Positions 37,866 to 62,155 of a stretch of 64,000 bases of DNA are shown in pieces. Position 1 is the first letter of the stretch, and the number at the start of each line of letters is the position of its first letter. Position numbers and translations under genes: made by a program. Source of the stretch: Tardiphaga robiniae (lineage in GTDB: Bacteria; Pseudomonadota; Alphaproteobacteria; Rhizobiales; Xanthobacteraceae); assembly GCF_001618955.1 (NCBI RefSeq), contig NZ_LVYV01000023.1, positions 434,001 through 498,000 on the forward strand, in the 5' to 3' direction. The notes beneath the pieces are model-generated. The model was not told the origin of the DNA. It was given only the letters and a program-made list of their open reading frames with translations, and did not search any database.

Positions 37866-38972
37866 ATGTATGTCGCCGTCAAGGGTGGCGAACGCGCCAT
37901 CGAGAATGCGCATCGTCTGCTGGCTCATGAGCGCCGAGGTGATCGCGATGTGCCGGAAGTGTCGCTGGCGCAGATTTCCAATCAGCTCGGCCTAGCGGTC
38001 GATCGCGTAATGACCGAAGGCTCGCTCTATGATCGCGAGCTCGCTGCGCTGGCCATCAAGCAGGCGCGCGGCGACATGATCGAGGCGATCTTCCTGCTGC
38101 GCGCCTTTCGCGCGACGTTGCCGCGGTTCGGATCGAGTGAGCCCATTGATACGTCGCAAATGCAAGTGCGGCGTCGCGTGTCCTCGACCTTCAAGGATAT
38201 GCCAGGCGGCCAGGTGCTCGGCCCGACCTTCGACTACACGCATCGTCTTCTTGATCCCGAGCTGACCGGCGAATCCTCGCCCGAGCAGCCGGCCATGACC
38301 GACGCAGAGCCGGGCGTGATGCCGCGCGTGACTGATATCCTCGGCCGCGACGGCCTGATTGAAACGTCGCCCATCGAAGATCCCGAAAAGCCGGTCGGCG
38401 ATCTCACCCGCGATGCGCTGAGCTTCCCGGCAGACCGCGATCTGCGCCTTCAGAATCTTGCGCGGGCCGATGAAGGGTTTCTTCTGTCGCTCGGCTATTC
38501 CTCGCAGCGCGGCTATGGCCGCAACCATCCTTTCGCCGGCGAAATCCGTCTTGGCGAGGTCGAGGTCGAATTCATGGCCGAGGATGTCGGTTTCGCGGTG
38601 CCGCTGGGGTCGATCACGCTGACCGAGTGTCAGATGGTCAACCAGTTCAAGGGCAGCGATACGGAAGCGCCGTGCTTCACCCGCGGATATGGCCTCGCTT
38701 TCGGTCAGTCTGAGCGCAAAGTAATGTCGATGGCGCTGGTCGATCGCACGCTGCGTGCACGCGAGCTTGGCGAGGACATCAAGGCGCCGGCGCAGGACGA
38801 GGAATTCGTCATGTCGCATTCCGACAATGTGCAGGCGACCGGCTTCGTCGAGCATCTGAAGCTGCCGCATTATGTCGACTTCCAGTCCGAACTCGGCCTG
38901 CTCCGCAAGCTGCGCAAGGAATTCGCCGACGCCAACGAGACGCCAGTTGCTCTTCAGGAGGCCGCGGAATGA
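37866..38972 (+). CDS. phnI: C-P lyase complex subunit PhnI
   Basis: 368 residues, the usual length. MYVAVKGGERAIENAHRLL at the N-terminus, LAQISNQLGLAVDRVMTEGS, and LSLGYSSQRGYGRNHPFAGE in the centre are family signatures. PhnI acts as a nucleosidase that, with PhnG, H and L, makes ribose-1-phosphonate 5-triphosphate from ATP and phosphonate. Its stop overlaps the phnJ start (ATGA). Confidence 0.96.
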   Translation: MYVAVKGGERAIENAHRLLAHERRGDRDVPEVSLAQISNQLGLAVDRVMTEGSLYDRELAALAIKQARGDMIEAIFLLRAFRATLPRFGSSEPIDTSQMQVRRRVSSTFKDMPGGQVLGPTFDYTHRLLDPELTGESSPEQPAMTDAEPGVMPRVTDILGRDGLIETSPIEDPEKPVGDLTRDALSFPADRDLRLQNLARADEGFLLSLGYSSQRGYGRNHPFAGEIRLGEVEVEFMAEDVGFAVPLGSITLTECQMVNQFKGSDTEAPCFTRGYGLAFGQSERKVMSMALVDRTLRARELGEDIKAPAQDEEFVMSHSDNVQATGFVEHLKLPHYVDFQSELGLLRKLRKEFADANETPVALQEAAE

Positions 38973-39853
38973 ACGCGCCGACATATAACTTCGCTTATCT
39001 GGACGAGCAGACCAAGCGGATGATCCGCCGCGCCATTCTCAAGGCGATCGCGATCCCCGGCTATCAGGTGCCGTTCGCCAGCCGGGAAATGCCGATGCCC
39101 TACGGCTGGGGCACCGGCGGCGTGCAGGTGACGGCGGCGATCCTCGGACCCATCGACAAGCTCAAGGTGATCGACCAGGGCTCCGACGACACCACCAACG
39201 CGATCTCGATCCGCAAGTTCTTCGAGAAGACCGCAGGCGTGGCCGTGACCACGAGCACGGGTGATGCGACGGTCATTCAGACCCGGCATCGCATTCCCGA
39301 AGCGACGCTGCAGGCGCATCAGGTGCTGGTCTATCAGGTGCCGATCCCGGAGCCGCTGCGCTTCCTCGAGCCACGCGAGACAGAGACGCGGCGTATGCAT
39401 GCGCTCGCCGAATACGGCTTGATGCATGTAAAGCTCTATGAGGACATCGCGCGCTTCGGCCATATCGCCACGTCCTATGCCTATCCGGTGAAGGTCAATG
39501 CGCGTTACGTGATGGACCCGTCGCCGACGCCGAAATTCGACAATCCGAAGATGGACAACTGCGCGGCGCTGCAGCTATTTGGCGCCGGCCGCGAGAAGCG
39601 CATCTATGCGATCCCGCCCTACACATCGGTGGTGTCGCTGGATTTCGAGGACCATCCGTTCGAGCCCTACAAGCACAAGGCCTGCTGCGCGCTGTGCAAC
39701 GCCGAGGATAGCTATCTCGACGAAATCGTAACCGACAACAAGGGCAGCCGGATGTTCGTCTGCTCCGACACCGATTATTGCGAAACGCGGCAATCACAGG
39801 GACACCGCGGCAGCGAGAATGCTGCGCCCTATGCGGAGAGCGCAAATGCTTGA
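38969..39853 (+). CDS. phnJ: Alpha-D-ribose 1-methylphosphonate 5-phosphate C-P lyase PhnJ
   Basis: 294 residues. The four cysteines of the 4Fe-4S/radical site are present as C240, C243, C265 and C271 (ACCALCNAEDSYLDE and FVCSDTDYCETRQ), one residue offset from E. coli C241, C244, C266 and C272. This radical-SAM enzyme cleaves the carbon-phosphorus bond to release an alkane such as methane. All catalytic cysteines are intact, so the pathway should work. phnK begins inside its last codons. Confidence 0.97.
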   Translation: MNAPTYNFAYLDEQTKRMIRRAILKAIAIPGYQVPFASREMPMPYGWGTGGVQVTAAILGPIDKLKVIDQGSDDTTNAISIRKFFEKTAGVAVTTSTGDATVIQTRHRIPEATLQAHQVLVYQVPIPEPLRFLEPRETETRRMHALAEYGLMHVKLYEDIARFGHIATSYAYPVKVNARYVMDPSPTPKFDNPKMDNCAALQLFGAGREKRIYAIPPYTSVVSLDFEDHPFEPYKHKACCALCNAEDSYLDEIVTDNKGSRMFVCSDTDYCETRQSQGHRGSENAAPYAESANA

Positions 39854-40670
39854 TGTGACAGCGAATTCAGGTCACCGCGCCGCGCCCGTGCCTGCCAGCG
39901 ACGAGCCGTTGCTTGTTGCGGCAAACCTGGGGAAATCTTATGGCCGTCTTGCGGCATGCCGCGACGTGTCGTTCGAACTCTATTCCGGCGAAGTTCTGGC
40001 CATCGTCGGCGAGTCCGGCTCCGGCAAATCGACGCTGCTGCAGATTCTCTCAGGCCAATTGGCGTCGACCACTGGCAGCGTCGCCTACCGGATGCGCGAT
40101 GGCGTAACGCGCGATCTCGCCACCATGGGCGAGGCTGAGCGGCGCTTCCTGTTCCGCACTGACTGGGGCTTCGTGCATCAGGACCCGGCGATGGGGCTGC
40201 GCATGGCGGTTTCCGCCGGCGCCAATGTCGGTGAGCGACTGATGGCCGTTGGCCATAACCATTATGGCAAGATCCGCGACACTGCGTCGTCCTGGCTCGA
40301 GCGCGTCGAGATTTCGCCCGAGCGTATCGACGATGCGCCGCGGACCTATTCCGGCGGTATGCGGCAGCGGCTGCAGATCGCGCGCAATCTCGTCACCGAA
40401 CCGCGTCTCGTGTTCATGGACGAACCGACCGGCGGTCTCGACGTATCGGTGCAGGCGCGTTTGCTGGACATGATGCGCACGCTGGTCTCGGAGCTTGGTC
40501 TGTCGGCCATCGTCGTGACCCATGATCTCGCGGTGGCGCGGTTGCTGTCACATCGCGTGATGGTTATGCAGGGCGGACGCGTGATCGAAACTGGTCTCAC
40601 GGATCAGGTGCTCGACGATCCCAGAGAGCCCTATACGCAACTGCTTGTTTCCTCGATTTTGCCGGCGTGA
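39846..40670 (+). CDS. phnK: PhnK, ABC-type ATPase of the C-P lyase
   Basis: 274 residues from the ATG at 39846, which overlaps the phnJ end by 8 bases. Walker A GESGSGKSTLLQ, signature YSGGMRQRLQ, and Walker B RLVFMDEPTGGLD are complete. PhnK associates with the PhnJ side of the core complex rather than with a membrane permease. phnL starts 7 bases downstream. Confidence 0.95.
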   Translation: MLDVTANSGHRAAPVPASDEPLLVAANLGKSYGRLAACRDVSFELYSGEVLAIVGESGSGKSTLLQILSGQLASTTGSVAYRMRDGVTRDLATMGEAERRFLFRTDWGFVHQDPAMGLRMAVSAGANVGERLMAVGHNHYGKIRDTASSWLERVEISPERIDDAPRTYSGGMRQRLQIARNLVTEPRLVFMDEPTGGLDVSVQARLLDMMRTLVSELGLSAIVVTHDLAVARLLSHRVMVMQGGRVIETGLTDQVLDDPREPYTQLLVSSILPA

Positions 40671-40677
40671 GGGCAAC

Positions 40678-41379
40678 ATGATTCCGATGATCGATATCCG
40701 CAACGCCGAAAAGACCTTCGTGATGCATCTGCAGGACGGCATTCGCCTGCCTGTTGTGCGCAATGTCTCCTTTCACGTTGCGCCGGGCGAATGCGTGGTG
40801 CTGTCCGGCCCCTCGGGGGCGGGCAAGTCGTCGATCCTGAAGATGATCTTCGGCAATTATCGTTGCGACGGCGGCACCATCGGAGTGCGCCACAACGGTG
40901 ATGTCATCGATATCGCCACCGCCGAGCCGCGCGAGATTCTGGGTGTGCGCCGCGACACCATCGGCTATGTCAGCCAGTTCCTGCGCGCAGTGCCGCGTGT
41001 GGCCGCGATCGATGTCGTGGCCGAGCCGCTGCTCGTTGCTGCCGTAACGCGCGAGGAGGCGCGTGCGCGTGCGGGGGCGTTGCTTAAACGTCTCAACATT
41101 CCCGAGCGGCTGTGGAAGCTGCCGCCATCGACCTTCTCCGGCGGCGAGCAGCAACGCGTGAATATCGCCCGTGGCTTTATCTCCGATCTGCCGATCCTGT
41201 TGCTGGACGAACCGACTGCATCGCTTGATGCAGCCAACCGCGCCGTGGTGGTCGAGCTGGTTGCAGAGAAAAAACGTGCGGGTGTTGCCATGGTCGCCAT
41301 TGTGCATGACGACGAAGTGCGGCACTTGATCGCCGACCGGCTGGTGGACGTCGCATCCTTCGCCGCTGCTGCTGCCTGA
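40678..41379 (+). CDS. phnL: PhnL, ABC-type ATPase of the C-P lyase
   Basis: 233 residues from the ATG at 40678. Walker A GPSGAGKSSILKM, signature FSGGEQQRVNIARG, and Walker B PILLLDEPTASLD are intact. The protein resembles LolD-like ATPases but belongs to the phosphonate operon. PhnL is needed in the first step, formation of the ribose-phosphonate nucleotide intermediate. phnM follows after 11 bases. Confidence 0.95.
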   Translation: MIPMIDIRNAEKTFVMHLQDGIRLPVVRNVSFHVAPGECVVLSGPSGAGKSSILKMIFGNYRCDGGTIGVRHNGDVIDIATAEPREILGVRRDTIGYVSQFLRAVPRVAAIDVVAEPLLVAAVTREEARARAGALLKRLNIPERLWKLPPSTFSGGEQQRVNIARGFISDLPILLLDEPTASLDAANRAVVVELVAEKKRAGVAMVAIVHDDEVRHLIADRLVDVASFAAAAA

Positions 41380-41390
41380 GAAAGAGAACC

Positions 41391-42545
41391 ATGATCGCAT
41401 CATCGACCGAAACCGTCATCGGCAACGCCAGGATCGTTCTTGCCGACCGCGTCATCGACAAGGGCTGGATCGCCTTTGTTGACGGTCGCATTGCCGAATT
41501 CGGTGAGGGAGATGCGCCGCGCGGCAGCGACGACATGCGCGGCGATCTGATCATGCCCGGCCTGGTCGAATTGCACACCGACCATCTCGAAGCGCATTTC
41601 ATGCCGCGGCCGAAGGTGTTCTGGGATCCCATCCCCGCGGTCGTCTCCTATGACGGCCAGCTTGCTACCTCCGGCATCACCACAGTGCTGGACTCGGTAC
41701 GGGTCGGCTGCGAGGACTCAAGCCAGGGGATCGACAGCTATGCCGGCCTGCTGGTGGATTCCATTGCCTCTGCCGGCGAAGCCAGTCTCCTGCGGGTCGA
41801 TCACTTCCTGCATCTGCGCTGCGAGATTCCGATGCCGACCGTGGTCGAGGAAGCGAAGGCGCTCTTGGAGAAGCCGAACGTCCGGCTGATGTCGCTGATG
41901 GACCACACGCCAGGCCAGCGCCAGTTCCGCGACGAGGAGAAGCTACGCACTTACTATCGCGGCAAGGGTGGCAAGAGCGATGCCGAGCTCGATGTGATGT
42001 TCGCGCAACGCCTGGCCTGTCAGCAGCAATATGCGGCCGGCAATATGCGCGCGATCGTGGCGCTGGCCCATGGGCGAAACATTCCGCTGGCGAGCCATGA
42101 CGACACCACGGAAGACAACGTGACCGAAGCCGTTGGAGACAAGGTCTCGGTGGCCGAATTCCCGACCACGCTGGAAGCGGCCCAAGGCCTGCACAAGGCC
42201 GGCATCGGCATCCTGATGGGCGCGCCGAATGTCGTCCGCAACGGATCGCATTCCGGCAATATCGCGGCGATCGATCTCGCCCGCGAAGGCATGCTGGATA
42301 TCCTGTCGTCGGACTATGTGCCGTCGAGCCTTCTGATGGGCGCGTTGCAGCTCTCGAGCAAGGTGCCATCCATCGATCTGGCGAGCGCGATCCGCACGGT
42401 GACCAAGCGGCCCGCGGAAGCCGTCGGGCTCACGGACCGCGGCGAGATCGCGGTCGGCAAGCGCGCCGATGTGATCCGCGTACATGTGGCGCATGAGGTA
42501 CCGGTGGTGCGCAATGTCTGGCGCGAAGGACATCGGGTGGCATGA
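41391..42545 (+). CDS. phnM: Alpha-D-ribose 1-methylphosphonate 5-triphosphate diphosphatase PhnM
   Basis: 384 residues. Amidohydrolase-fold metal sites: LVELHTDHLEAHF (HxH-type motif), the central MDHTPGQRQF, and ASHDDTTEDNV and LSSDYVPSSL near the end. It removes pyrophosphate from the triphosphate intermediate to give the PhnJ substrate. Its stop overlaps the phnN start by four bases. Confidence 0.95.
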   Translation: MIASSTETVIGNARIVLADRVIDKGWIAFVDGRIAEFGEGDAPRGSDDMRGDLIMPGLVELHTDHLEAHFMPRPKVFWDPIPAVVSYDGQLATSGITTVLDSVRVGCEDSSQGIDSYAGLLVDSIASAGEASLLRVDHFLHLRCEIPMPTVVEEAKALLEKPNVRLMSLMDHTPGQRQFRDEEKLRTYYRGKGGKSDAELDVMFAQRLACQQQYAAGNMRAIVALAHGRNIPLASHDDTTEDNVTEAVGDKVSVAEFPTTLEAAQGLHKAGIGILMGAPNVVRNGSHSGNIAAIDLAREGMLDILSSDYVPSSLLMGALQLSSKVPSIDLASAIRTVTKRPAEAVGLTDRGEIAVGKRADVIRVHVAHEVPVVRNVWREGHRVA

Positions 42546-43120
42546 CCGACACCGCGGCGATATCCGAAGCGCAGGCAGGCCGGATCGGCCCCGGCCGGTT
42601 GGTGCTGGTGGTCGGCCCGTCGGGTGCCGGCAAGGATACGCTGATCGGTCTGGCGCAGGCCGCCTGCGCGGATGACAACAAGGTGGTGTTCGCGCGCCGC
42701 GTGGTGACGCGCGCGGCATCAGAATTCGAGAACAACGAACAGGTCACGCCGGAGGCTTTCTGGCGGGCACAGGCGCGCGGCGACTTCGCCATCGACTGGG
42801 AGGCGCATGGCCTCTGCTATGCGCTGCCGCGCTCCATCGACGATGAACTCCGCGCCGGCCGCAGCGTCGTCGCCAATATTTCGCGGACGGTGATCCCGGC
42901 GTTGCGCGCCGCCTATGACAATGTTGTCGTGGTGTCGATCACGGCGCCATCAGAGGTTCTGGCGGCACGGCTGGCGGCACGTGGCCGCTCTAGCGATGGA
43001 CCGATCGGCGACCGGCTGCGCCGCAGCGTCGATGGCGCGAGGCCCGACGTGACGATCAATAATGTCGGTGCGGCGGAAGAGCACGCCGGCGATCTGATCC
43101 GGATCATCAGAGGCCAATAG
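42542..43120 (+). CDS. phnN: Ribose 1,5-bisphosphate phosphokinase PhnN
   Basis: 192 residues with a guanylate-kinase-like fold. Walker A is VVGPSGAGKDTLIGL and the substrate loop includes FARRVVTRAASEFENNEQ. It phosphorylates ribose 1,5-bisphosphate to PRPP, salvaging the sugar left by C-P lyase. The hydrolase PhnP, which makes its substrate, is not encoded in this window. Confidence 0.93.
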   Translation: MTDTAAISEAQAGRIGPGRLVLVVGPSGAGKDTLIGLAQAACADDNKVVFARRVVTRAASEFENNEQVTPEAFWRAQARGDFAIDWEAHGLCYALPRSIDDELRAGRSVVANISRTVIPALRAAYDNVVVVSITAPSEVLAARLAARGRSSDGPIGDRLRRSVDGARPDVTINNVGAAEEHAGDLIRIIRGQ

Positions 43121-44951: not shown

Positions 44952-45737
44952 TTAAAGAAGCAGCGGCTTTACCGAGTCGGCGGCATCGCGCAGCAGCGGC
45001 AGGAAGCGGTCGATCATTTCCCCGGTCGAGACCCGGTCGACATGGGCGCCCATATTGATGGCGGCGACGATCGCGCCATCGTAGCGCCGCACGGGCACCG
45101 AGATCGAGCGGAAGCCCGGCTCGGCCTCGCGGTCGACCAGCGAATAGCCTTTCTCGCGGTCGGTGATGATAGTCGCCTTCAGCAATTCCTTGTCGACAAC
45201 CGTGAAGGGCGTCATTGCCACGAGATCCATCGCATCCAGCGTCGCGGTGAGGTCGTCGTTGGAAAATTTCCCGAGCATGGCGCGGCCGACCGACGAACAG
45301 AACGCCGGTAGCCGGTAGCCGAGATCGATGCCGGCGGAGAATACGCGTGCCGGGCTGGCGCGGGCGACGAAGATCACCTCATGGCCCTCGAGCACCGCGA
45401 GCGAGGAAATCTCCTGCGCATCGCTGGAGATGCTGTCGAGCACCGGCTGCAGGATGGTGACGACCTGATTGGACGTCATATAGGAGCCGGCCAGCGCGAG
45501 GACGCGCGGCGAGAGCGCGAACAGCTTGCCGTCGCTGGTCACATAGCCCTTGCGTTCCAGCGTGAACAGGATGCGTCGGGCGGTGGCACGCGGCAGGTCG
45601 GCGGCCTTGGCGACGTCGCTCAGCGTCATCGGGCGCGAATGCGCGCCGAACAGTTCGAGCACCCGCAAGCCGCGATCGAGGCTCTCGATGAAGTCGGTAT
45701 TGCCGCGTTCGTCGTCGGGGCGCTTGATTTTGGGCAT
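44952..45737 (-). CDS. IclR-family transcriptional regulator
   Basis: 261 residues. The N-terminal winged helix (about 15-75) includes SLDRGLRVLELFGA and LSDVAKAADLPRATARRILF; the C-terminal effector domain has the IclR pattern GYRLPAFCSSVGRAMLG and RSISVPVRRYDGAIVAAINMG. The sequence is of the PcaR/PobR type that controls aromatic catabolism. It lies between the reductase and the isomerase pseudogene with 16-base gaps on both sides. It is the obvious candidate to bind the paired TGTTC-N7-GAACA sites 1.3 kb upstream. Confidence 0.92.
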   Translation of the reverse strand: MPKIKRPDDERGNTDFIESLDRGLRVLELFGAHSRPMTLSDVAKAADLPRATARRILFTLERKGYVTSDGKLFALSPRVLALAGSYMTSNQVVTILQPVLDSISSDAQEISSLAVLEGHEVIFVARASPARVFSAGIDLGYRLPAFCSSVGRAMLGKFSNDDLTATLDAMDLVAMTPFTVVDKELLKATIITDREKGYSLVDREAEPGFRSISVPVRRYDGAIVAAINMGAHVDRVSTGEMIDRFLPLLRDAADSVKPLLL

Positions 45738-45753: not shown

Positions 45754-46974
45754 CTATTTGCCTGCTTCGAATTTTTTCAGATCGAATGACAGATCGGCGG
45801 CCTGTTCTGGTGTCGGCGACAACGACGCGGTGATCAGGCGACGTGCGATCATCTGGTCGCCCGGCCGGTTGATACTGTCGACGGCGGTGAGCTTGCCGTC
45901 GCGATAATAAAACACCGAGAACTTGCCATCATCCATCGAACCGCGGATCACCGCGCTGTCGGTTGGCGCAGAGAGGCCGACGATCTGCAGCTTGGCGTCA
46001 TATTGATCCGACCAGAAACGCGGCACCGCGTCATAGGCTTCCGGCCTGCCGGCGATCATCGCGCCCACAGCCTTGCCCTGATCGGTGGCGTTCTGCACGG
46101 CTTCCAGCCTGACGCGGCGGCCGGCGAAGCCGTTGTGGTGATTGCTGACGTCGCCGGCGGCATAGATGTTCGGCGCGCTGGTCAGGCCATGTTCGTCGAC
46201 ATCGATGCCATTGGTGCAGGTGATATCCGCCTGCGCGGCCAACTCGTCATTGGCGATGCCGCCAATGCCGGCGACGATCAGGTCGGCGCGCACCCGCAGG
46301 CCGCTGGAGCAGACGACCTCATGCACGGCGCTGTTGCCTTCGATGGCAACGACGGATTCGTTGAAGCGGATGTCGAGACCATGGGAGCGATGGCTATCCA
46401 GAAGGAATTGCGAGATCAGCGGCGATACCGCGCGCTCCAACAGGCGCGACTGCGCCTCGATCAGCGTCACCTTCTTGCCGGCCTTGGCAGCAGTCGATGC
46501 TACTTCGAGGCCGATGAAGCCGCCGCCGACGATGACGACATCGTTGGCTGCTTCGAGCCGGGGCTTGAGATGCAGCGCGTCATCGAGTGTGCGCAGATAG
46601 ACGATGCCGTCGCGCTCATGGCCGGGCACGCTGAGCCGTCGCGCCCGTGAGCCGGTGGCGATGACAAGCTGATCGAAGGGCAGGCTGTCGCCGCCGTCCA
46701 GTGCGATCCGGCCAGCCGCGTGATCGAGCCCGATGGCGCGATGGCCCAGCACCAGTTCGATGCCCTGGGTCTTGAAATAGTCCTCGCCGCGGAGGAAAAG
46801 GCTGTTGTGCACGACGTCGCCAGACAGAAATGCTTTGGACAGTGGCGGTCGCTGATAGGGCAGATGGATTTCGTCGGCGACGATGCGGATCGGCGCCTGA
46901 TAGCCTTTCTCACGCGCACTGATGCCTGCCTGCACGCCGGCATAGGACGCGCCCACGATCACCAGACCCGTCAT
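45754..46974 (-). CDS. FAD-dependent ferredoxin reductase (rhodocoxin/BphA4 type)
   Basis: 406 residues from the ATG complementary to 46972-46974, with GGAGG upstream. The first dinucleotide motif is GLVIVGASYAGVQAG, the second NDVVIVGGGFIGLEVAS, and the FAD ribityl motif is NIYAAGDV. The PYQRPPLSK stretch is typical of oxygenase-coupled NADH:ferredoxin reductases. It should feed electrons to the Rieske oxygenase encoded on the opposite arm, through a 2Fe-2S ferredoxin that is not encoded here. Confidence 0.92.
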   Translation of the reverse strand: MTGLVIVGASYAGVQAGISAREKGYQAPIRIVADEIHLPYQRPPLSKAFLSGDVVHNSLFLRGEDYFKTQGIELVLGHRAIGLDHAAGRIALDGGDSLPFDQLVIATGSRARRLSVPGHERDGIVYLRTLDDALHLKPRLEAANDVVIVGGGFIGLEVASTAAKAGKKVTLIEAQSRLLERAVSPLISQFLLDSHRSHGLDIRFNESVVAIEGNSAVHEVVCSSGLRVRADLIVAGIGGIANDELAAQADITCTNGIDVDEHGLTSAPNIYAAGDVSNHHNGFAGRRVRLEAVQNATDQGKAVGAMIAGRPEAYDAVPRFWSDQYDAKLQIVGLSAPTDSAVIRGSMDDGKFSVFYYRDGKLTAVDSINRPGDQMIARRLITASLSPTPEQAADLSFDLKKFEAGK

Positions 46975-47008
46975 GCTTGTCCTCCGAACGTCGTTTCCAC
47001 GCGAGATT

Positions 47009-47025
47009 TGTTCATTGAGGGAACA
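47009..47025. promoter_or_regulatory. Operator candidate, copy 1 (TGTTC-N7-GAACA)
   Basis: TGTTC (47009-47013) and GAACA (47021-47025) form a perfect inverted repeat with a 7-base spacer, 35 bases upstream of the reductase start. The same motif recurs at 47157-47173. Adjacent GAAC-N4-GTTC (47021-47032) shares the right half. IclR dimers bind short palindromes of this size, so this may repress or activate the minus-strand arm. Confidence 0.6.
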
Positions 47026-47153
47026 TACGTTCGGAATAATTGATGGGCAAGCGGAAGGCCAAATGCCCACCATTGCCGACGTTACGAGCATCGGCGCTTC
47101 AAAATTGGGCTTGCACACGATTTAGTTTGGATCCAATCTATCAATATTCGAAC

Positions 47154-47176
47154 TAATGTTCGCTTATTGAACATTA
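47154..47176. promoter_or_regulatory. Operator candidate, copy 2 (TGTTC-N7-GAACA)
   Basis: TAATGTTC (47154-47161) and GAACATTA (47169-47176) form a perfect 8-bp inverted repeat with a 7-base spacer. The core TGTTC-N7-GAACA is identical to copy 1, 148 bases away. It ends 15 bases before the amidohydrolase start, overlapping where a ribosome-binding site or transcription start would be, which suggests repression of the plus-strand arm. Confidence 0.62.
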
Positions 47177-47191
47177 TTGGGGGCAGTTCTG

Positions 47192-48883
47192 ATGAAGTTC
47201 ACGTCCTTGTGGATTGCCGGAATACTCGTCGCTGCGGCGCTGCCGGCAGCCGCGCAGCAACGCAACGTCAACGATCCCGATCTCGTGCTGGTGGGCGGAA
47301 AAGTCCTGACCATGGACAGCGGCTCGACCGTGGCCGAGGCGGTAGCGGTTCGCGACGGCAAGATTCTCGCGGTCGGCAGCACCGCCTCCGTCAGACCGCT
47401 CGCCGGCGCGCAGACGCGGGTCATTGATCTCGCCGGCAAGACTGTCGTTCCCGGGCTTATCGATACCCATGCCCATTTCGGCGCGGCCGGCCTGGGCGCC
47501 TATGTCGTCAACCTCAGCCCGGCCAAGAACGTGGCTGAGGCCTTGCAGTTGCTGAAGGCCTTCGTTGCGAAGAAGCAGGCCGGCGAGTGGATCACCACCG
47601 GTGGCTGGCATCCGCCATCGCAACTCGCGGAGAAGCGCTACCTGACCCGGCAGGAAATCGACAGCGTGACGCCGAACAACCCGGTATATCTGCGCACGGT
47701 CGGGCATTTCGCCATGGCCAACAGCCTTGCCTTGCAGAAGGCCGGAATCGACAAGACGACGCCCGATCCGTCGGGCGGATCGTTCGAGCGCGATGCTGCG
47801 GGCGAACTGACCGGCGTGCTGGTCGAGACCGCGATCCCGCTGGTCGAAAATCGCGTGCCACCGTTCACCGAGGCCGAGCAGATCAACCAGTACAAGGTCG
47901 CCGAGGCCGCGCTGAACAGCTTTGGCATCACCAGCGTGGTCGAAGGCGCCACCAGCGCGCGCGACACGCGCACGCTGCAGAAGATCGCGCTGTCGAAGGA
48001 AGCGACCTTGCGCGTCGGACTGATGTACCGCCCCGAGCCGCCGGCCGAACTTTCCGCATGGGAAGCGATTATGAACGGCAGCGGCGCGACGTCAGGTTTC
48101 GGCGACGACTGGCTGAAGTTCGGCGGCATCAAGATCTTCTACGACGGCGGCATGACGTTGAAGACGGCGATGATGCGCGATGTCTATCCGGACTCGCATG
48201 ACGATTATCACGGCATCGCCCAGCAGACGCCGGAGCGGTTGAAGCAACTGGTGTCGATCTGCAACAAGTATGACTGGCGCGTTGGCGTTCATGTCGTCGG
48301 CGACCTCGGCGTCGATCAGGTGCTGGACGCCTTCGAGGCCGCGGACAAGGAAAAGTCGATCAAGGATCGCCGCTTTATTCTGATCCATGCCAGCCTGATC
48401 AGGCCGGAGCAGATGGAGCGCGCGCACCGTCTCGGCGTGAGGGTCGATTTCCAGAACGTGTTCATGTGGGACAAGGCCGCGACCGTGGAACGCTTTCTCG
48501 GCAAAGCGGTGGCGGACCGCGCCGTTCCGACCAAATCGTTGATCGACAAGATGGGCCTAGACAATCTCGGCGCCGGCACCGACTTCCCGGTCAATCCGAT
48601 CAACCCGTTCCTCAACATGTACATCATGGTGACGCGGAAAGACCCGAATGGCCACGTCTACGGCGCGGCCGAAGCGATCGGCCGAGAGCAGGCGCTGAGG
48701 CTCTATACAAGCGCCGCATCCCGATACATGTTCGACGAAGCGCGGAAGGGCACGCTGGAGGCCGGCAAGCTGGCGGACCTCGTCGTTCTTTCCGCCGACT
48801 TCATGAGCGTTCCTGAAGACCAGATCAAGAATATCACGGCCGATATGACATTGGTTGGCGGTAAAGTCGTATTTCAACGTTGA
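47192..48883 (+). CDS. Exported amidohydrolase (YtcJ-like)
   Basis: 563 residues from the ATG at 47192. An N-terminal signal peptide (SLWIAGILVAAALPAAAQQ) predicts a periplasmic enzyme. The amidohydrolase barrel has VVPGLIDTHAHF (HxH metal site, about residues 85-96), the central FYDGGMTLKTAMM, the VHVVGDLGVDQVLDAF His, and LGAGTDFPVNPIN with the metal-site Asp. YtcJ-like members cleave amide or related C-N bonds. It is the first gene of the plus-strand arm, directly after the second operator candidate. The substrate is unknown. Confidence 0.9.
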   Translation: MKFTSLWIAGILVAAALPAAAQQRNVNDPDLVLVGGKVLTMDSGSTVAEAVAVRDGKILAVGSTASVRPLAGAQTRVIDLAGKTVVPGLIDTHAHFGAAGLGAYVVNLSPAKNVAEALQLLKAFVAKKQAGEWITTGGWHPPSQLAEKRYLTRQEIDSVTPNNPVYLRTVGHFAMANSLALQKAGIDKTTPDPSGGSFERDAAGELTGVLVETAIPLVENRVPPFTEAEQINQYKVAEAALNSFGITSVVEGATSARDTRTLQKIALSKEATLRVGLMYRPEPPAELSAWEAIMNGSGATSGFGDDWLKFGGIKIFYDGGMTLKTAMMRDVYPDSHDDYHGIAQQTPERLKQLVSICNKYDWRVGVHVVGDLGVDQVLDAFEAADKEKSIKDRRFILIHASLIRPEQMERAHRLGVRVDFQNVFMWDKAATVERFLGKAVADRAVPTKSLIDKMGLDNLGAGTDFPVNPINPFLNMYIMVTRKDPNGHVYGAAEAIGREQALRLYTSAASRYMFDEARKGTLEAGKLADLVVLSADFMSVPEDQIKNITADMTLVGGKVVFQR

Positions 48884-48920
48884 GCCGTACCACCGGTCGA
48901 GTTCGAAGAGGAATCTTCCC

Positions 48921-50288
48921 ATGATGAGCCAAGAGCAGAACGACCTGATCACCCGTATCGGGCCCAAGGCGCCCGCGGGCAAGCTGATGCGCCAATACTG
49001 GCAGCCGGCGGCGCTGGTCGATGAGCTCGAAGGGGATCGTCCGATCCGTCCGGTCAAATTGCTCGGCGAAGATTTTGTCCTGTTCCGCGACGAGCAGGGC
49101 CGTTATGGCCTGCTGGATCGCGACTGTCCGCATCGCGGTGCTGATCTGGCCTTCGGTCGCCTTGAAGGCGGCGGCGTGCGCTGCGCGTTTCACGGCTGGC
49201 TGTTCGACGTCGAGGGCAAGTGCCTGGAGACACCGGCCGAGCCGAAGACCTCGAAGCTTTGCGCCGGCATCAAGCAGCGCGCTTATCCGGTGGTCGAGAA
49301 GGGCGGCATTCTCTGGGCTTATCTTGGCGAGGGCGAGCCGCCGGCATTCCCGGAGATCGACTGTTTCGCCGCACCCGGTCAGTACACCTTCGCCTTCAAG
49401 GGGCTGTTTGAATGTAACTGGCTGCAGGCGCTGGAGGTCGGTATCGATCCCGCCCATGCCTCGTTCCTGCATCGCTTCTTTGAGGACGAAGACGTCAAGG
49501 CGTCCTACGGCAAGCAGTTCCGCGGCGCATCCGCTGGCACCGAGCTGCCGATGACCAAGATCCTGCGCGAGTATGATCGCCCGATCATCAATGTCGAATC
49601 GACCGAATACGGTCTGCGTCTGATTGCGTTGCGCGAGCTCGACGACGAGCGCACCCATGTCCGCGTCACCAACCAGCTATTCCCGCACGGCTTCGTCATT
49701 CCCATGAGCACGGAAATGACGATCACCCAGTGGCACGTGCCGGTCGATGACGAGAACTGCTATTGGTATGCGATCTTCACCAGCTACACGACACCGGTCG
49801 ACAAGAAGAAGATGACCGACCAGCGGCTCGAACTCTACGAGCTGCCGAACTACACCTCGCGCAAGAACAAGACCAACGACTACGGCTTCAATCCGCACGA
49901 GCAGAAGCACGAGACCTATACCGGCATGGGCGCCGACATCAACGTCCACGACCAGTGGGCGGTGGAATCCATGGGCAAGATCCAGGATCGTACCCGTGAG
50001 CATCTTGGCTCCAGCGACAAGGCGATCATCGCCTATCGCAAGCTGCTGCGTGCGGAGATCGAGAAGGTTGCCGGCGGCCAGAGGCCGATGATGTCTCTCG
50101 ATGCGGACACCGCGCGCAGCATTCAGGGCCCGGGCACCATGGACGGCATCGGGCCGACCAAGGGCTGGGAAACCTATTGGATGGAAGTCGACGTCGCCCG
50201 CCGTCGTGGTGCGCCATGGATGGCGGCGGCTCCGGCCGACCAGACCGAGCCGGGGTCCAATGTCATCCACCTGCCGGCGGCAGAGTGA
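48921..50288 (+). CDS. Rieske non-heme iron oxygenase, alpha-only (phthalate-dioxygenase-like)
   Basis: 455 residues; start at 48921 or 48924 (Met-Met) with GAGGAA upstream. The Rieske 2Fe-2S site is C69-P-H71 and C88-A-F-H91. The mononuclear iron motif is LEVGIDPAHASFLHRFF, with H179 and H184. The large alpha size without a beta-subunit gene fits the phthalate dioxygenase/vanillate demethylase group, which does ring hydroxylation or O- or N-dealkylation. It sits 37 bases after the amidohydrolase and 31 bases before the glutamine-synthetase-like gene. A reductase is encoded on the other arm. Confidence 0.93.
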   Translation: MMSQEQNDLITRIGPKAPAGKLMRQYWQPAALVDELEGDRPIRPVKLLGEDFVLFRDEQGRYGLLDRDCPHRGADLAFGRLEGGGVRCAFHGWLFDVEGKCLETPAEPKTSKLCAGIKQRAYPVVEKGGILWAYLGEGEPPAFPEIDCFAAPGQYTFAFKGLFECNWLQALEVGIDPAHASFLHRFFEDEDVKASYGKQFRGASAGTELPMTKILREYDRPIINVESTEYGLRLIALRELDDERTHVRVTNQLFPHGFVIPMSTEMTITQWHVPVDDENCYWYAIFTSYTTPVDKKKMTDQRLELYELPNYTSRKNKTNDYGFNPHEQKHETYTGMGADINVHDQWAVESMGKIQDRTREHLGSSDKAIIAYRKLLRAEIEKVAGGQRPMMSLDADTARSIQGPGTMDGIGPTKGWETYWMEVDVARRRGAPWMAAAPADQTEPGSNVIHLPAAE

Positions 50289-50319
50289 AGATCGATCAGA
50301 ACAGCCGCGGGAGAGTGCG

Positions 50320-51756
50320 TTGAGTTTCGTTGAACGTCACGGTTTGTGGTCCGCGGAGCAGAAAGAAGCAGCCGTCCGGCTGCGCAGCATGGTCGAAGAG
50401 CACAAGCTCGAAGTGGTCCGGCTGTCGTTTCCGGATCAGCACGGCATCCTGCGCGGCAAGACGCTGATCGCCAGCGAGGCGTTGCGCTGTCTCGAAAGCG
50501 GCTGCTCGATCACCACGACGATGTTCGCCAAGGACACGTCGCACAAGACGGTGTTTCCGGTGTTCACCGCCGGCGGCGGCTTCGGCATTCCCGAGATGCA
50601 GGGCGCGGCCGACGTCTTGATGATCCCGGATCCGACGACGTTCCGTGTGTTGCCATGGGCGCCGGAGACAGGCTGGGTTCTGTGCGACGTGCATTTCGCC
50701 GACGGACGTCCGGTGCCGTTCGCGACGCGCAACCTCTACAAGAAGGTGCTCGGCGATCTCGGCGCGCGTGGCTACGATTTCGTTGCCGGTCTTGAAGTCG
50801 AATTTCATATTTTCAACGTCGAGAACAACCGCATGAAGCCGGAGGATGCCGGCCAGCCCGGCACGCCGCCGGATGTCAGCCTGCTCTCGCACGGCTACAA
50901 CTATCTCACCGAGCAGCGCTACGACCAGATGGAGCCGGTGCTGGAAATCATCCGGCGCGACGTGCTGGCGCTCGGTCTACCGCTGCGGTCGGTCGAAGTC
51001 GAATACGGCCCGAGCCAATGCGAATTCACTTTCGCGCCGACCATCGGCCTCACGCCCGCCGACAGCATGGTGCTGTTTCGCAGCGCCGTGAAGCAGATCG
51101 CGCATCGCCACGGCTATCACGCGACCTTCATGTGCCGGCCGAAGATTCCGAATGTCGTGTCATCGGGCTGGCATCTGCACCAGTCGATCGTATCGCGTAC
51201 GACCGGCGCGAACGCGTTCATGCCGACCGAGGGCACGCAGCCGCTGTCATCGTTCGGGCAGGGCTATCTCGCGGGGCTTCTTACGCATGCGCGCGCGGCG
51301 ACCGTATTCACGACGCCGACTATCAACGGCTACAAGCGTTATCGCTCCTATTCTCTGGCGCCGGACCGTGCGATCTGGGGCCGCGATAATCGTGGCGCGA
51401 TGTTGCGCGTGCTCGGCGGTGCTGGCGATTCCGCGACGCGTATCGAAAATCGCGTCGGCGAGCCCGCCGCCAATCCCTATCTCTATATGTCGTCGCAGAT
51501 CCTCTCGGGTCTCGACGGCGTTGATCGCAAGCTCGATCCAGGGCCATCAGCCGATACGCCTTACGAGACCAATGCCGATCTGCTGCCGAAGTCGCTGCGT
51601 GAGGCGACCTTTGCGCTCAAGGAAGATCCGTTCTTCCGCGAGAAGATGGGCGCGATGATGGTCGACTATTATACGCACATCAAGAATGCTGAGATCGATC
51701 GCTTCCAGGCGGAAGTCTCCGACTGGGAGCAGCGCGAATATTTCGAGATGTTCTGA
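50320..51756 (+). CDS. Glutamine synthetase-like ligase (gamma-glutamyl-amine type)
   Basis: 478 residues from a TTG start preceded by GGGAGAG; the in-frame extension upstream lies inside the Rieske gene. Metal and substrate residues of the GS fold are present: GLEVEFHIF (E159, E161), VEVEYGPSQCEF, the active-site SGWHLHQS, and the ATP/glutamate stretch from NGYKRYRSYSLAP to WGRDNRGAMLRV, then RIENRVGEPAANPYLY. Such non-nitrogen-assimilation members join glutamate to an amine, as in PuuA or aniline-degradation TdnQ. No adenylylation-site loop of the main GlnA is obvious. The context points to glutamylation of the catabolic substrate. Confidence 0.9.
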   Translation: MSFVERHGLWSAEQKEAAVRLRSMVEEHKLEVVRLSFPDQHGILRGKTLIASEALRCLESGCSITTTMFAKDTSHKTVFPVFTAGGGFGIPEMQGAADVLMIPDPTTFRVLPWAPETGWVLCDVHFADGRPVPFATRNLYKKVLGDLGARGYDFVAGLEVEFHIFNVENNRMKPEDAGQPGTPPDVSLLSHGYNYLTEQRYDQMEPVLEIIRRDVLALGLPLRSVEVEYGPSQCEFTFAPTIGLTPADSMVLFRSAVKQIAHRHGYHATFMCRPKIPNVVSSGWHLHQSIVSRTTGANAFMPTEGTQPLSSFGQGYLAGLLTHARAATVFTTPTINGYKRYRSYSLAPDRAIWGRDNRGAMLRVLGGAGDSATRIENRVGEPAANPYLYMSSQILSGLDGVDRKLDPGPSADTPYETNADLLPKSLREATFALKEDPFFREKMGAMMVDYYTHIKNAEIDRFQAEVSDWEQREYFEMF

Positions 51757-51866
51757 CGCTGCAATCTGTCGCGTCTTGTTGAAATCAAACGCGCCCCAGT
51801 TCGGCACGTTTATTGAATACAGGTTTGCCGAATAGCTTTCCAACTTTTGTAACGGGGACTACTGCA

Positions 51867-53042
51867 ATGAATAAAGGCGCTCAATCGATCCTGGCTCTGG
51901 CCATTCTCGGCCTGATGACCGGTACTGCATCCGCCGACGTCATCAAGGTTGGTGTCATCGGCACGTTTTCGGGGCCGTATGCGCTGTTCGGCAAGAACTT
52001 CAAGATGGGCATCGATGCCTGGGTTGCGCAGAATGGCAACAAAGTAGGCAATCACACGGTCGAGTTTGTTTACAAGGACGAAGAAGGCCCGAACCCCGCG
52101 AAGTCGAAGGCGCTGGCGCAGGAGCTGCTGGTCAAGGACAAGGTGCAGTATCTCGCCGGCATCTATTTCACGCCGAACGCGCTGGCGGTTGCGCCGCTGC
52201 TCGAAGAATCCAAGACGCCGCTGATCGTGATGAATGCGGCGACCTCGGCCATCGTTGAGAAGAGCCCCTATATCGTCCGCACCTCCTTCACCATGTGGCA
52301 GAACACGGTGCCCGCGGCAAAGGTCGCGTTCAAGAATGGCGCCAAGAAAGTTGCAATTGCGGTCAGCGATTACGGTCCGGGCATCGATGCCGAAGCGGCG
52401 TTCAAGAAGACCTTTGAAGGCGAGGGCGGCGCCGTTGTTGAGGCAGTCCGCATTCCGCTCGCCACCACCGACTTCAGCCCGATCATGCAGCGTATCAAGG
52501 ACTCCGGCGCTGACACGATTTTCACCTTCCTGCCATCGGGTCCGCCGACCCTTGGTTTCGTGAAGGCCTATCTCGACAACGGTCTCAAGGCCGGCGGCGT
52601 CAAGCTGATGTCGACGGGCGACGTGGTGACCGAGCCGGATCTGCCGAATATCGGCGATCCCGGCATCGGCATCCTGTCGACCTATCACTATTCGGTGTCG
52701 CATGACTCGAAGGAAAATGCCGCGTTCCTCGCGGAGCTCAAGAAGGGCGGCGCCAGCCTGGACGAGGTCACCATGACCTCGGTCGCGGCTTATGACGGTG
52801 CACGCCTGATCTACAAGATGATCGAGGCCACCGACGGCAAGCGCGATCCGGCCAAGGCGGTAGACGCGGTGAAGGACATGAAGTGGATCTCGCCGCGTGG
52901 TCCGGTATCGATCGATCCCGCCACCCGCCACATCCGTCAGAACGTCTATGTGCGCAGCGTGGCGAAGGTGGACGGCAAGCTGATCAACAAGGAAGAGCAG
53001 ACCTTTGCCGATCAGCCCGATTGGGCGCTCAGCACGAAGTAG
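51867..53042 (+). CDS. ABC transporter substrate-binding protein (LivK-like)
   Basis: 391 residues from the ATG at 51867. A signal peptide (AQSILALAILGLMTGTASA) is followed by a type I periplasmic-binding fold starting IKVGVIGTFSGPYALFGKNF. This is the branched-chain amino acid/aromatic acid family. In oxygenase gene clusters, such proteins usually bind an aromatic acid or amide rather than leucine. Its permease and ATPase genes follow after one intervening amidohydrolase gene. An intrinsic terminator lies directly after the stop, which would make it more abundant than the membrane parts. Confidence 0.93.
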   Translation: MNKGAQSILALAILGLMTGTASADVIKVGVIGTFSGPYALFGKNFKMGIDAWVAQNGNKVGNHTVEFVYKDEEGPNPAKSKALAQELLVKDKVQYLAGIYFTPNALAVAPLLEESKTPLIVMNAATSAIVEKSPYIVRTSFTMWQNTVPAAKVAFKNGAKKVAIAVSDYGPGIDAEAAFKKTFEGEGGAVVEAVRIPLATTDFSPIMQRIKDSGADTIFTFLPSGPPTLGFVKAYLDNGLKAGGVKLMSTGDVVTEPDLPNIGDPGIGILSTYHYSVSHDSKENAAFLAELKKGGASLDEVTMTSVAAYDGARLIYKMIEATDGKRDPAKAVDAVKDMKWISPRGPVSIDPATRHIRQNVYVRSVAKVDGKLINKEEQTFADQPDWALSTK

Positions 53043-53084: not shown

Positions 53085-53121
53085 CTGCGACATCGTCGCG
53101 CGAGATGAGATTTCCTTCGAC

Positions 53122-54759
53122 ATGACCAGCCGCGCGCGCTCGCTTCGATTGACCAACGCCCGCATCTATCGTTCTGCCTGGGATGAAACCCCCGCGGACA
53201 GCATCGTCGTCAGCGATGGCAAGGTGGTCTGGATTGGTGCAGCAGATGTTGCGCCATCCGCCGACGAGACGATCGATCTCGCGGGCGCCACCGTCATTCC
53301 CGGCCTCACCGACGCGCATATTCATCTGTTCGCTATCGCCCATGCGCGACTGCAGGTGCCGGTCACGCCGCGCGATGCGCCCACGATATCCGATGTGCTT
53401 GATTTGCTGGTTGCGCGTGCGCGCGCCATTCCATGTGATAAATGGGTCTACGGCGCGGGCCTCGATGAGAACGGACTGGCGGAGCATCGGCTGCCGACAC
53501 GGGCCGAGATCGACGTCGTCATTCCCGATCATCCGGTGCTGATCCGCCGCTTCTGCGGTCATGTCGCCGTCGTCAACAGTGCCGCGCTGCGACTGCTGGA
53601 CATCGACGATGCCACTGCCGATCCGGAAGGTGGCACGTTCGGGCGCTCCGAGGATGGCCGACTGGACGGCAGTGCCAAAGAAAGCGCAGCCGAACTGATA
53701 TTCCGTGCGGCGCCGCCGATGGATCGCAATGAGCTCACCACGGCTCTGCGCGCGACAATTGCCGACAGCGCCAGGTTCGGTCTTATTGCTGCTGTAGAAG
53801 CTGCGGTCGGATTCACCGTCGGCTTCGATGATGAATTCGCGATCTGGAACGAGATCCGCGCGAATGGCGATGTGCTGCCAATGCGGCTCGGCTTCATGAA
53901 CCAGCTCGACCCGGCTGAAGCGGCGGCGCGTGGGTTGGCGCCGACGCAAAACGTCGACTGGCAGTCGATGACGCTGAAATATTTCGCTGATGGCATCGTC
54001 GGCGCGCGAACTTCGGCGGTGAGCGAGGATTTCTTCGATACGCCGTCCCGCGGCATGTTCATGCGCGATGAAACCGAACTGCAGCGCGTGATCGCCGACG
54101 CGCATGCGGACGGCTGGCAGGTCGCCGTTCATTGTACCGGCGATCGCGGTATCGACTGCATCATCGAAGCCTATGAGAAGGCGCAGGCAGCGTATCCCCG
54201 CGCCGATGCCCGGCATCGCATCGAACATTACTTCGTGCCGCCCGCCGGTGGACTGGCACGGATGAAGGCATTGGGCGCGCTCGTCGTCACCCAGCCAAGT
54301 TTCCTCACCCGGATGCGGCGCTCGATTGCCGGCGCTTTCGGTCCGCGCGCCGATCGTTGCTATCCCGGCCGCTCGGTGATCGACGCGGGTGTCACTTACA
54401 TCGCCAGCTCTGATGCGCCGACCGGGTCGTGGTCTCCGTGGGATGGCATTGCCGATGCGGTGAGCCGCGCCTCGGACAGCGGCGGTGCGCCGATCGGGCA
54501 GGGTGAAGCCATCAGCGTCCGCGAAGCCATTCACAGCTATACGGTCGGTGGCGCCATCGCGATGAAGCAGGAAGACTGGCGCGGCACGCTGATGCCGGGC
54601 ATGGCGGCCGATCTGATCGCCCTTGATCGCGATCCGTTCGCCGCCGAGTGCTTCCCTTTGAAGGAGACGCAGGTGTTGCTCACCATGGTGCGTGGCGCCG
54701 TCGTCCATGACGCCATGCCGCAGTTTCCGGAATGGCGCTCGGCCGCTGCTTCGGCATAG
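53122..54759 (+). CDS. Cytoplasmic amidohydrolase (YtcJ-like)
   Basis: 545 residues from the ATG at 53122; no signal peptide. Metal-site motifs: VIPGLTDAHIHLF (HxH), MTLKYFADGIVGARTSA, VAVHCTGDRGIDCIIEAY and ASSDAPTGSWSPWDG near the end. It is of the same family as the exported amidohydrolase of this cluster but clearly different in sequence. It would act inside the cell, on the transported compound or on a glutamylated or oxidised intermediate. Eight bases separate it from livH. Confidence 0.9.
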   Translation: MTSRARSLRLTNARIYRSAWDETPADSIVVSDGKVVWIGAADVAPSADETIDLAGATVIPGLTDAHIHLFAIAHARLQVPVTPRDAPTISDVLDLLVARARAIPCDKWVYGAGLDENGLAEHRLPTRAEIDVVIPDHPVLIRRFCGHVAVVNSAALRLLDIDDATADPEGGTFGRSEDGRLDGSAKESAAELIFRAAPPMDRNELTTALRATIADSARFGLIAAVEAAVGFTVGFDDEFAIWNEIRANGDVLPMRLGFMNQLDPAEAAARGLAPTQNVDWQSMTLKYFADGIVGARTSAVSEDFFDTPSRGMFMRDETELQRVIADAHADGWQVAVHCTGDRGIDCIIEAYEKAQAAYPRADARHRIEHYFVPPAGGLARMKALGALVVTQPSFLTRMRRSIAGAFGPRADRCYPGRSVIDAGVTYIASSDAPTGSWSPWDGIADAVSRASDSGGAPIGQGEAISVREAIHSYTVGGAIAMKQEDWRGTLMPGMAADLIALDRDPFAAECFPLKETQVLLTMVRGAVVHDAMPQFPEWRSAAASA

Positions 54760-60931: not shown

Positions 60932-62085
60932 TGCCCGCTCCGCGCGTTCTGTTCGTCTGCCATACGGGCTCGATCTCCGGCGCTGAGCTCGTTCTGATCG
61001 ATCTCGTTCAGCCATGGGTGGGCGAGTCGGCCTTCCTGTTCGAGGATGGTCCGCTGCAGCAGGCGCTCACAGCCAAGGGCCTGAAGGTGCGCGTGTCGCG
61101 CTGGGGCGAGGGGCTCACGGATGTCAGGCGCGACAGCTCGATCCTGAAAGCCTTTCCGCTGATTGGTCGGCTCGGGGCCATCATTGCCGAATTGACGCGC
61201 GAGGCGCGCCGTCATGACGTCATCTATGCGAATTCGCAGAAGGCCTTTGTGTTATCGGCCGTGGCCGCCACGCTGGCGCGGCGTCCGCTGATCTGGCACC
61301 TGCACGATATCATCAGCAGTGAGCATTTCGGAGCTACACAGCGCCGCGTGCAAGTGGCGCTGGCGAATTATTGCACGGCGAAGGTGGTCGTTCCTTCGCA
61401 AGCCGCTGCAGATGCCTTCATTGCCCAAGGCGGCCGCAAGGAGCTGGTCGCGATCGTGCCCAACGGCCTTGATGTGCCGCCGGACGTAAGCACGCCGCTC
61501 GAGATCAGGCGCGAGTTGAAATTGCCCGAAGGACCGCTCGTCGGAGTCTTCAGCCGCCTCGCGGCCTGGAAGGGGCAGCATATCGTGTTGCAGGCTCTCG
61601 CAAAGACGCCGGGCGTCAGCTGTATTATTGCAGGAGCTGCGCTGTTTGGCGAAGAGCCTTATGCCGAGAAGCTCAACCGGATGGTGGCGGATCTCGGTCT
61701 TGGCGATCGCGTGCATTTCCTCGGCCAGCGCGGCGACGTGCCGAGGCTGATGCGCGCCGTCGATGCGATGATCCATCCCTCGATCGATCCCGAGCCCTTC
61801 GGTCGCACGCTGGTCGAAGCCATGCTCGCCGATGTGCCTGTGATTGCGACGGATGCCGGTGCGGCGTCCGATATTCTCGAGGCCGGCAAGGCGGGGACGC
61901 TGGTGCCGCCCGGAGATGCCGATGCGCTGGCCGCCGCTATTACCAAGGTCATGTTAAGGCCGCCTGAACTGGCGGGCCAGTTGCAATATGCCGAAGCGCG
62001 GGCGCGCTCGCATTACAGCGTCGATCAGATGCTGCAGACGGTCTCGGGCCTGATCGGGCGAGCGGCTGCCGGAGCTCCCGTGTGA
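60931..62085 (+). CDS. GT4-family glycosyltransferase
   Basis: 384 residues from the ATG at 60931, overlapping the upstream stop by one base. GT-B fold: VLFVCHTGSISGAELVLIDL at the N-terminus, IVPNGLDVPP, GVFSRLAAWKGQHIVLQAL, and the donor-binding EPFGRTLVEAMLADVPVIAT with the E-x7-E motif. It probably adds a sugar to a growing lipid-linked repeat unit of the exopolysaccharide. Donor and acceptor are unknown. Confidence 0.92.
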   Translation: MPAPRVLFVCHTGSISGAELVLIDLVQPWVGESAFLFEDGPLQQALTAKGLKVRVSRWGEGLTDVRRDSSILKAFPLIGRLGAIIAELTREARRHDVIYANSQKAFVLSAVAATLARRPLIWHLHDIISSEHFGATQRRVQVALANYCTAKVVVPSQAAADAFIAQGGRKELVAIVPNGLDVPPDVSTPLEIRRELKLPEGPLVGVFSRLAAWKGQHIVLQALAKTPGVSCIIAGAALFGEEPYAEKLNRMVADLGLGDRVHFLGQRGDVPRLMRAVDAMIHPSIDPEPFGRTLVEAMLADVPVIATDAGAASDILEAGKAGTLVPPGDADALAAAITKVMLRPPELAGQLQYAEARARSHYSVDQMLQTVSGLIGRAAAGAPV

Positions 62086-62155
62086 CCGCGTATCGCTGCT
62101 CAATTCTTGGTTTGAAAGCCTGGACGGTCCCTGATCGGACCGCAGCGGTGCGCTT

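Follow-up and report, generated by a model that had tools for sequence, protein, structure and literature searches.

Paired three-box sites between the divergent arms of a catabolic gene cluster in Tardiphaga robiniae as candidate operators of the linked IclR-family protein

Two exact copies of a short palindrome lie between the divergent arms of a gene cluster in Tardiphaga robiniae, which raises the question of which protein uses them and how it controls the genes on either side. We addressed this question in a stretch of 64,000 nucleotides, hereafter the window, whose positions are used throughout. The genes of the two arms are the following.

44952 to 45737, minus strand: IclR-family regulator of the PcaR/PcaU/PobR subfamily (TIGR02431, 303 bits; Pfam HTH_IclR and IclR_C), second gene of the left arm.
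45754 to 46974, minus strand: ferredoxin--NAD(+) reductase-like FAD protein (Pyr_redox_2 and Reductase_C), first gene of the left arm.
47192 to 48883, plus strand: Amidohydro_3-family protein opening the right arm; by eye, its N-terminus looks like a signal peptide.
48921 to 50288, plus strand: Rieske oxygenase with a LigXa-type C-terminal domain (domains scanned from the longer ORF start at 48855; ATG 48921 checked).
50101 to 51756, plus strand: glutamine-synthetase-like ligase; the family matches begin at about residue 94, so the ORF start at 50101 is probably too far upstream.
51867 to 53042, plus strand: periplasmic binding protein of a branched-chain/urea-type ABC transporter (the scan began at 51813, where the longer ORF starts; ATG 51867 checked).
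53122 to 54759, plus strand: second Amidohydro_3-family protein (the scan began at 53116, two codons ahead of the checked ATG 53122).

The divergent genes are separated by 217 bp, between the ATG of the reductase-like gene (46974, minus strand) and that of the amidohydrolase gene (47192, plus strand), and a purine-rich stretch precedes each of them. The longest reductase ORF would start at GTG 47118, which would place the left site (O1, below) inside the gene; this start was rejected for ATG 46974, since the family match begins at residue 5 and GGAGGA stands ahead of the ATG. The best NCBIfam match of the reductase-like protein was an AndAa-type reductase (324 bits, under the equivalog cut-off of 650). 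By eye, the start of the amidohydrolase (47192-47260) resembles a signal peptide, so this enzyme may act outside the cytoplasm. Also by eye, transporter-like ORFs come after the second amidohydrolase; past them lie look-alikes of a polysaccharide chain-length protein, a glycosyltransferase and a MurJ-like flippase (58634-63655). Beyond the IclR gene, the ORF translations look like a phosphonate C-P lyase cluster (37866-43120).

The preliminary description of this DNA had reported two exact palindromic copies 148 bases apart, one ahead of each divergent gene, with 8-bp arms at the amidohydrolase-side copy. All of this was confirmed. TGTTC-N7-GAACA occurs without mismatch at 47009-47025 and 47157-47173, and the second copy extends to TAATGTTC-N7-GAACATTA at 47154-47176. 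The same description had taken the 17-base palindrome as the unit. The core is real, but at each site it forms only two of the three boxes of a 23-bp unit, GAAC-N4-GTTC-N7-GAAC, whose third box had been missed. This unit is exact at both sites, and its boxes alternate in direction. Both sites are directional and have the same orientation relative to their own gene.

47010 to 47032, minus strand: putative operator O1, GAAC-N4-GTTC-N7-GAAC, read toward the ferredoxin-reductase-like gene; it includes the core at 47009-47025, and similar sites occur in related loci.
47150 to 47172, plus strand: putative operator O2, GAAC-N4-GTTC-N7-GAAC, read toward the amidohydrolase gene; it includes the core at 47157-47173 and the 8-bp arms at 47154-47176, and similar sites occur in related loci.

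Aligned toward their own genes, O1 and O2 share the letters CGAAC-N2-ATGTTC-N1-CT-N1-A-N1-TGAACA. O1 ends 35 bases ahead of the start codon on the left, and O2 ends 19 bases ahead of that on the right.

This architecture corresponds to a published class of IclR-family sites. The passages of PMC8222616 used here describe group 1 sites, with a TGT-11-ACA subgroup, group 2 sites, and three-box sites that combine both (32 orthologous groups); they report three-box sites for PcaU, PobR and HmgR. O1 and O2 fit this class in that their boxes alternate, with one pair of the group 1 type and the other at the group 2 spacing (GAAC-N4-GTTC). Indeed, TGT-N11-ACA with the inner TC...GA was found exactly at both sites, as was a third, alternating box at the group 2 spacing. 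The same passages place most site centres 20 to 80 nt before the gene start, a range that includes the core centres of O1 and O2, at 27 and 43 nt ahead of the start codons. They further describe tandem sites 18 to 22 nt apart, which the pairs of exact cores 19 nt apart on the left side of three related loci (L039, L084 and L140) resemble. The main text of PMC8222616 gave no match for Bradyrhizobium or Rhizobiales.

We then asked how rare these sites are. The genome was scanned in full (6,360,215 bases, 6.36 Mb, on 56 contigs) with the backward pattern as control. The bare core GTTC-N7-GAAC occurred 65 times compared to 46 for the control, which by itself would favour chance palindromes. In contrast, the 17-mer TGTTC-N7-GAACA was found at only four places (one for the control), two of them the O1 and O2 sites, and the exact three-box unit at two places, which are O1 and O2. 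Thus, little can be concluded from the core by itself but much from the three-box pair, and the many random copies that would have spoken against the preliminary description were seen neither for the 17-mer nor for the three-box unit. Within the window, the three-box pattern with at most one mismatch gave two matches where 0.12 were expected, and none of 100 shuffles contained two. With one mismatch allowed genome-wide, 21 matches (19 beyond O1 and O2) stood against 14 for the control, and a wider regulon in the genome was therefore not retained. Among 18 genomes of the genus, six have an exact three-box match; it lies at the same locus in three (the window's own, G155 and G230) and only away from the locus in the others (G088, G206 and G244).

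The conservation of the sites was followed across loci encoding the neighbouring Rieske protein. The set comprised the best 80 of 591 relatives plus 20 longer stretches, less four duplicates (L145, L147, L148 and L150), giving 96 loci; L001-L034 and the relatives beyond the best 80 lie outside it, 19 of the L001-L034 genomes being represented by longer stretches numbered L136-L154 and the window's own genome by L155. In the comparisons of these loci, the queries for the binding protein and the second amidohydrolase began one codon after and two codons ahead of their ATG, respectively, which leaves the site counts unaffected. A divergent arrangement of an IclR or reductase gene and a Rieske or amidohydrolase gene is found in 86 of the 96, and all 86 have an IclR gene. 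GTTC-N7-GAAC is exact in every one of these 86 divergent gaps, a count that overstates independence, since the loci are best matches to one Rieske protein, sample one branch and fall into 19 gap clusters, one of which holds 44. Any other spacing from 0 to 14 occurs in at most 2 of the 86. Copies of the core number 103 in the 19.1 kb of gaps, compared to 7 in the remaining 1,028 kb of the loci. The three-box unit with at most one mismatch is present in 46 of the 86 gaps (0 or 1 per shuffle in 20 shuffles), and elsewhere box 1 is degenerate. GAAC-N4-GTTC is exact in 31 of the 86 gaps, as against all 86 for the two-box core, and other box-1 spacings with the same core reach up to 15 of 86.

The gap was also compared in 200-base bins with the loci L136 and L139, which belong to close relatives in the genus. 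The IclR, reductase and Rieske genes of the window are 86 to 98% identical to theirs, whereas the two gap bins are 53 to 62% and the amidohydrolase bins 74 to 86% identical. Since the gap and the amidohydrolase gene (46960-48900) are more diverged than the flanking genes, the comparison suggests that this segment may have been replaced by recombination, as a local allele replacement. Both loci nevertheless carry a site on each side, the left core with one mismatch. A chance origin of the palindromes, which the frequency of the bare core might have favoured, is exceedingly improbable and was rejected: the spacing is fixed in all 86 gaps, the gaps are enriched in the core, the window shuffles never gave two sites, the site is kept where the gap has strongly diverged, and a third box and a paired orientation would have to be explained as well.

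Exact three-box sites were also observed outside the main gap. One lies in L040 (8942-8964), 54 bp before a second amidohydrolase homologue (51%), and another in L045 (834-856), some 150 bp ahead of a further amidohydrolase-like match (30%). The three-box site seems to travel with amidohydrolase-type enzymes in these two loci.

The preliminary description had further proposed that one regulator, the IclR protein of the island, serves both arms. The protein encoded at 44952-45737 passes TIGR02431 (PcaR/PcaU/PobR; 303 bits, cut-off 284.75) and scores above the gathering thresholds of PF09339 (HTH) and PF01614 (C-terminal effector domain). Its best solved-structure match by sequence is the Pca-regulon regulator 8eju. 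The subfamily match, the fit of the sites to the published IclR-family motif and the co-occurrence of motif and regulator across loci support the proposal. From knowledge of the family we infer that the linked IclR protein binds both sites, and we consider it highly probable that O1 and O2 are its operators, each at one of the two divergent promoters. Its gene is the second of the left arm and adjoins the reductase-like gene (16 bp behind it), so iclR is probably autoregulated through O1.

The closest described system is that of PcaU from Acinetobacter baylyi, with which the linked protein shares its subfamily by model name (TIGR02431). In the passages of PMC8222616 on PcaU, the operator motif is given as TTTGTTCGATWATCGMACAMA, with the same GTTC-N7-GMAC spacing as the core found here, and an extra external half-site is required for binding. 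That half-site is described there as a direct repeat, whereas the extra box of O1 and O2 stands at N4 as in the three-box class. Here, moreover, two complete operators serve two divergent arms, the geometry favours repression, and the neighbouring genes are not pca genes. Indeed, the six neighbouring proteins scanned are a reductase, amidohydrolases, a Rieske oxygenase, a ligase and a binding protein, with no pca or pob enzymes among them; the linked IclR protein is therefore probably not a PcaU orthologue.

The sites might instead serve chiefly another IclR-type protein encoded in the genome. The subfamily model finds ten matches genome-wide at E <=0.001, of which the linked protein alone scores above the cut-off. 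The second-best (251 bits, on contig C1) is preceded by a GTTC-N7-GAAC core, about 106 bp from the matched region, so that cross-talk with this paralogue is possible. We nonetheless regard another main user as very unlikely: the third box was not seen upstream of the contig C1 paralogue, and the motif follows the linked IclR gene across loci.

This last point was examined in the ten of the 96 loci that have no qualifying divergent IclR or reductase gene. In eight of them, the 700 bp ahead of the Rieske gene contain no exact core. As for the two that bear a core, L071 retains a piece of an IclR gene, and in L101 an IclR (41%) lies farther away. Among the eight, L069 shows an IclR match of 35% at another place, together with two cores at one mismatch. 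The other seven show neither an IclR match at E <=1e-20 in the stretch examined nor an exact core. Loci that have the IclR gene and loci that lack it thus differ in the core, which is good evidence that regulator and operator form a pair. In six of the seven (L089, L093, L094, L097, L099 and L109), an ORF with a similar HTH-like start was noticed by eye upstream of the Rieske gene; the one tested, that of L093, proved to be a benzoate-catabolism regulator of the PRK08154 type (443 bits against a cut-off of 204). In these six loci, a putative benzoate-type regulator and, again by eye, a CoA-ligase-like ORF adjoin the Rieske gene in place of IclR, a combination that hints at a link to benzoyl-CoA metabolism.

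Whether the presence of two sites is general was investigated with a weight matrix (score above 8; some left sites, in L037, L038 and L153, are weak at 8 to 10). A second, separate site was found in 27 of the 86 loci, a low count since the pair picking missed L084, which has three exact cores. The second site mostly accompanies the reductase arm: it is present in 23 of 25 reductase-divergent loci compared to 4 of 61 IclR-divergent loci, and under the stricter definition, which asks for two exact cores separated by over 60 bp, in 11 of 25 compared to 3 of 61. Many IclR-divergent gaps are only about 95 to 125 bp long, which leaves little room for a second site. A matrix fitted to all sites gave a second site in 28 of 78 testable gaps, with 0 or 1 per shuffle in 20 shuffles.

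Two separate sites in 27 loci, and the ability of IclR-family proteins to form tetramers, as described in the literature, would allow a DNA loop between two IclR dimers, which the preliminary description had thought possible. The measured site pairs do not support it. Across the 27 loci, the centres of the two sites lie 129 to 172 bp apart, and the helical phase is not significant (R 0.40, p ~0.17; 15 distinct values, a small sample). We thus consider that such a loop is unlikely to join the two sites, and the idea was not retained.

The mode of control depends on where the operators lie relative to the promoters. A sigma-70 consensus scan returned 0 sites, neither of the following promoters reaching its threshold; they were therefore read by eye and from a recurring CTTGC element.

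47022 to 47050, minus strand: predicted promoter of the reductase-IclR arm, with TTGCCC (47050-47045), a 17-nt spacer and TATGTT (47027-47022); its -10 overlaps box 2 of O1.
47111 to 47139, plus strand: predicted promoter of the amidohydrolase arm, with TTGCAC, a 17-nt spacer and CAATCT, just upstream of O2.

In 81 of the 86 loci, the right site is preceded by CTTGC at a distance of at most 50 bp, compared to 3.3 expected from shuffles; 64 occurrences begin 30 to 31 bp and 16 begin 39 to 41 bp ahead of box 1. On the left, CTTG stands 10 to 25 nt ahead of box 1 in 21 of 27 sites and is lacking in 6. If these elements are taken as the -35, the left operator covers the spacer and the -10, and the right operator comes directly after the -10. 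The transcripts may begin at about 47015 (minus strand) and 47146 (plus strand).

Operators over the -10 or start region usually repress, and the usual place for an activator is the -35 or further upstream. As the sites overlap the predicted promoter or start regions, this geometry makes it the more probable reading that IclR represses both arms and that an inducer relieves this repression. Without inducer, IclR dimers, or a tetramer over the alternating boxes, would cover the -10 or start region, and IclR on O1 and O2 would block both promoters, the regulator's own included. The left arm under O1 would comprise the reductase and IclR genes, and the right arm under O2 those of the amidohydrolase, the Rieske oxygenase, the ligase and the transporter. 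A pathway substrate or intermediate would free IclR and thereby turn both arms on. Such control would resemble that by PheR, described in the passages of PMC13273656 used here as the IclR-family repressor of phenanthrene genes in Sphingobium; its footprint spans +23 to -21 and covers the start site of an operon for aromatic catabolism. The PheR motif has a GCAACG core (PMC13273656), unlike O1 and O2.

The main rival keeps the same protein and sites but makes IclR an activator or dual regulator in the manner of PcaU and PobR, repressing its own arm and activating the catabolic arm when the inducer is bound. The PcaR/PcaU/PobR subfamily membership speaks for it (a paper cited by PMC8222616 calls PcaU an activator in its title), as do the 57 of 61 IclR-divergent gaps with a single detected site for two genes, which suit a dual role. 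In the window, by contrast, there is a separate site for each gene, both oriented alike and ending 35 (left) or 19 (right) bases before the start codon, and these sites overlap or follow the predicted -10. Activation of the catabolic arm is thus possible but doubtful, and repression of both arms remains the favoured reading.

What the cluster degrades can be guessed at from its enzyme types, which would suit an aromatic amide or amine. Pathways that glutamylate aromatic amines, such as that for 1-naphthylamine in Pseudomonas JS3066, reportedly have a Rieske oxygenase as a partner. In JS3066 the amine is reportedly glutamylated by a glutamine-synthetase-like enzyme (PMC11335346); the right arm likewise encodes a glutamine-synthetase-like ligase. 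Unlike that pathway, the present cluster has a LigXa-type oxygenase, two amidohydrolases and an ABC transporter. A literature search of limited depth found no description of this cluster or pathway.

Taken together, these features allow a tentative joint reading, in which the paired operators would flag the genes of an undescribed pathway for aromatic amides or amines as one local regulon. The exported amidohydrolase would free the compound, the ABC transporter import it, the glutamine-synthetase-like ligase glutamylate it and the LigXa-type Rieske oxygenase attack it. IclR would read an intermediate, the alternating box pairs (N4 or N7) being two dimer registers that switch states, and in the loci with a benzoate-type regulator control would have been handed to a different switch.

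The two sites are most likely bound by the IclR protein encoded beside them, a conserved but ordinary form of control over catabolic genes in soil bacteria. Rieske relatives at E <=1e-60 occur in 169 of 296 genomes drawn from the family, so that the gene is common there; for the catabolic cluster around it, the sites described here supply an operator defined precisely enough to be tested, along with a candidate regulator. The operator could also serve as a handle for finding the inducer, and hence the substrate.
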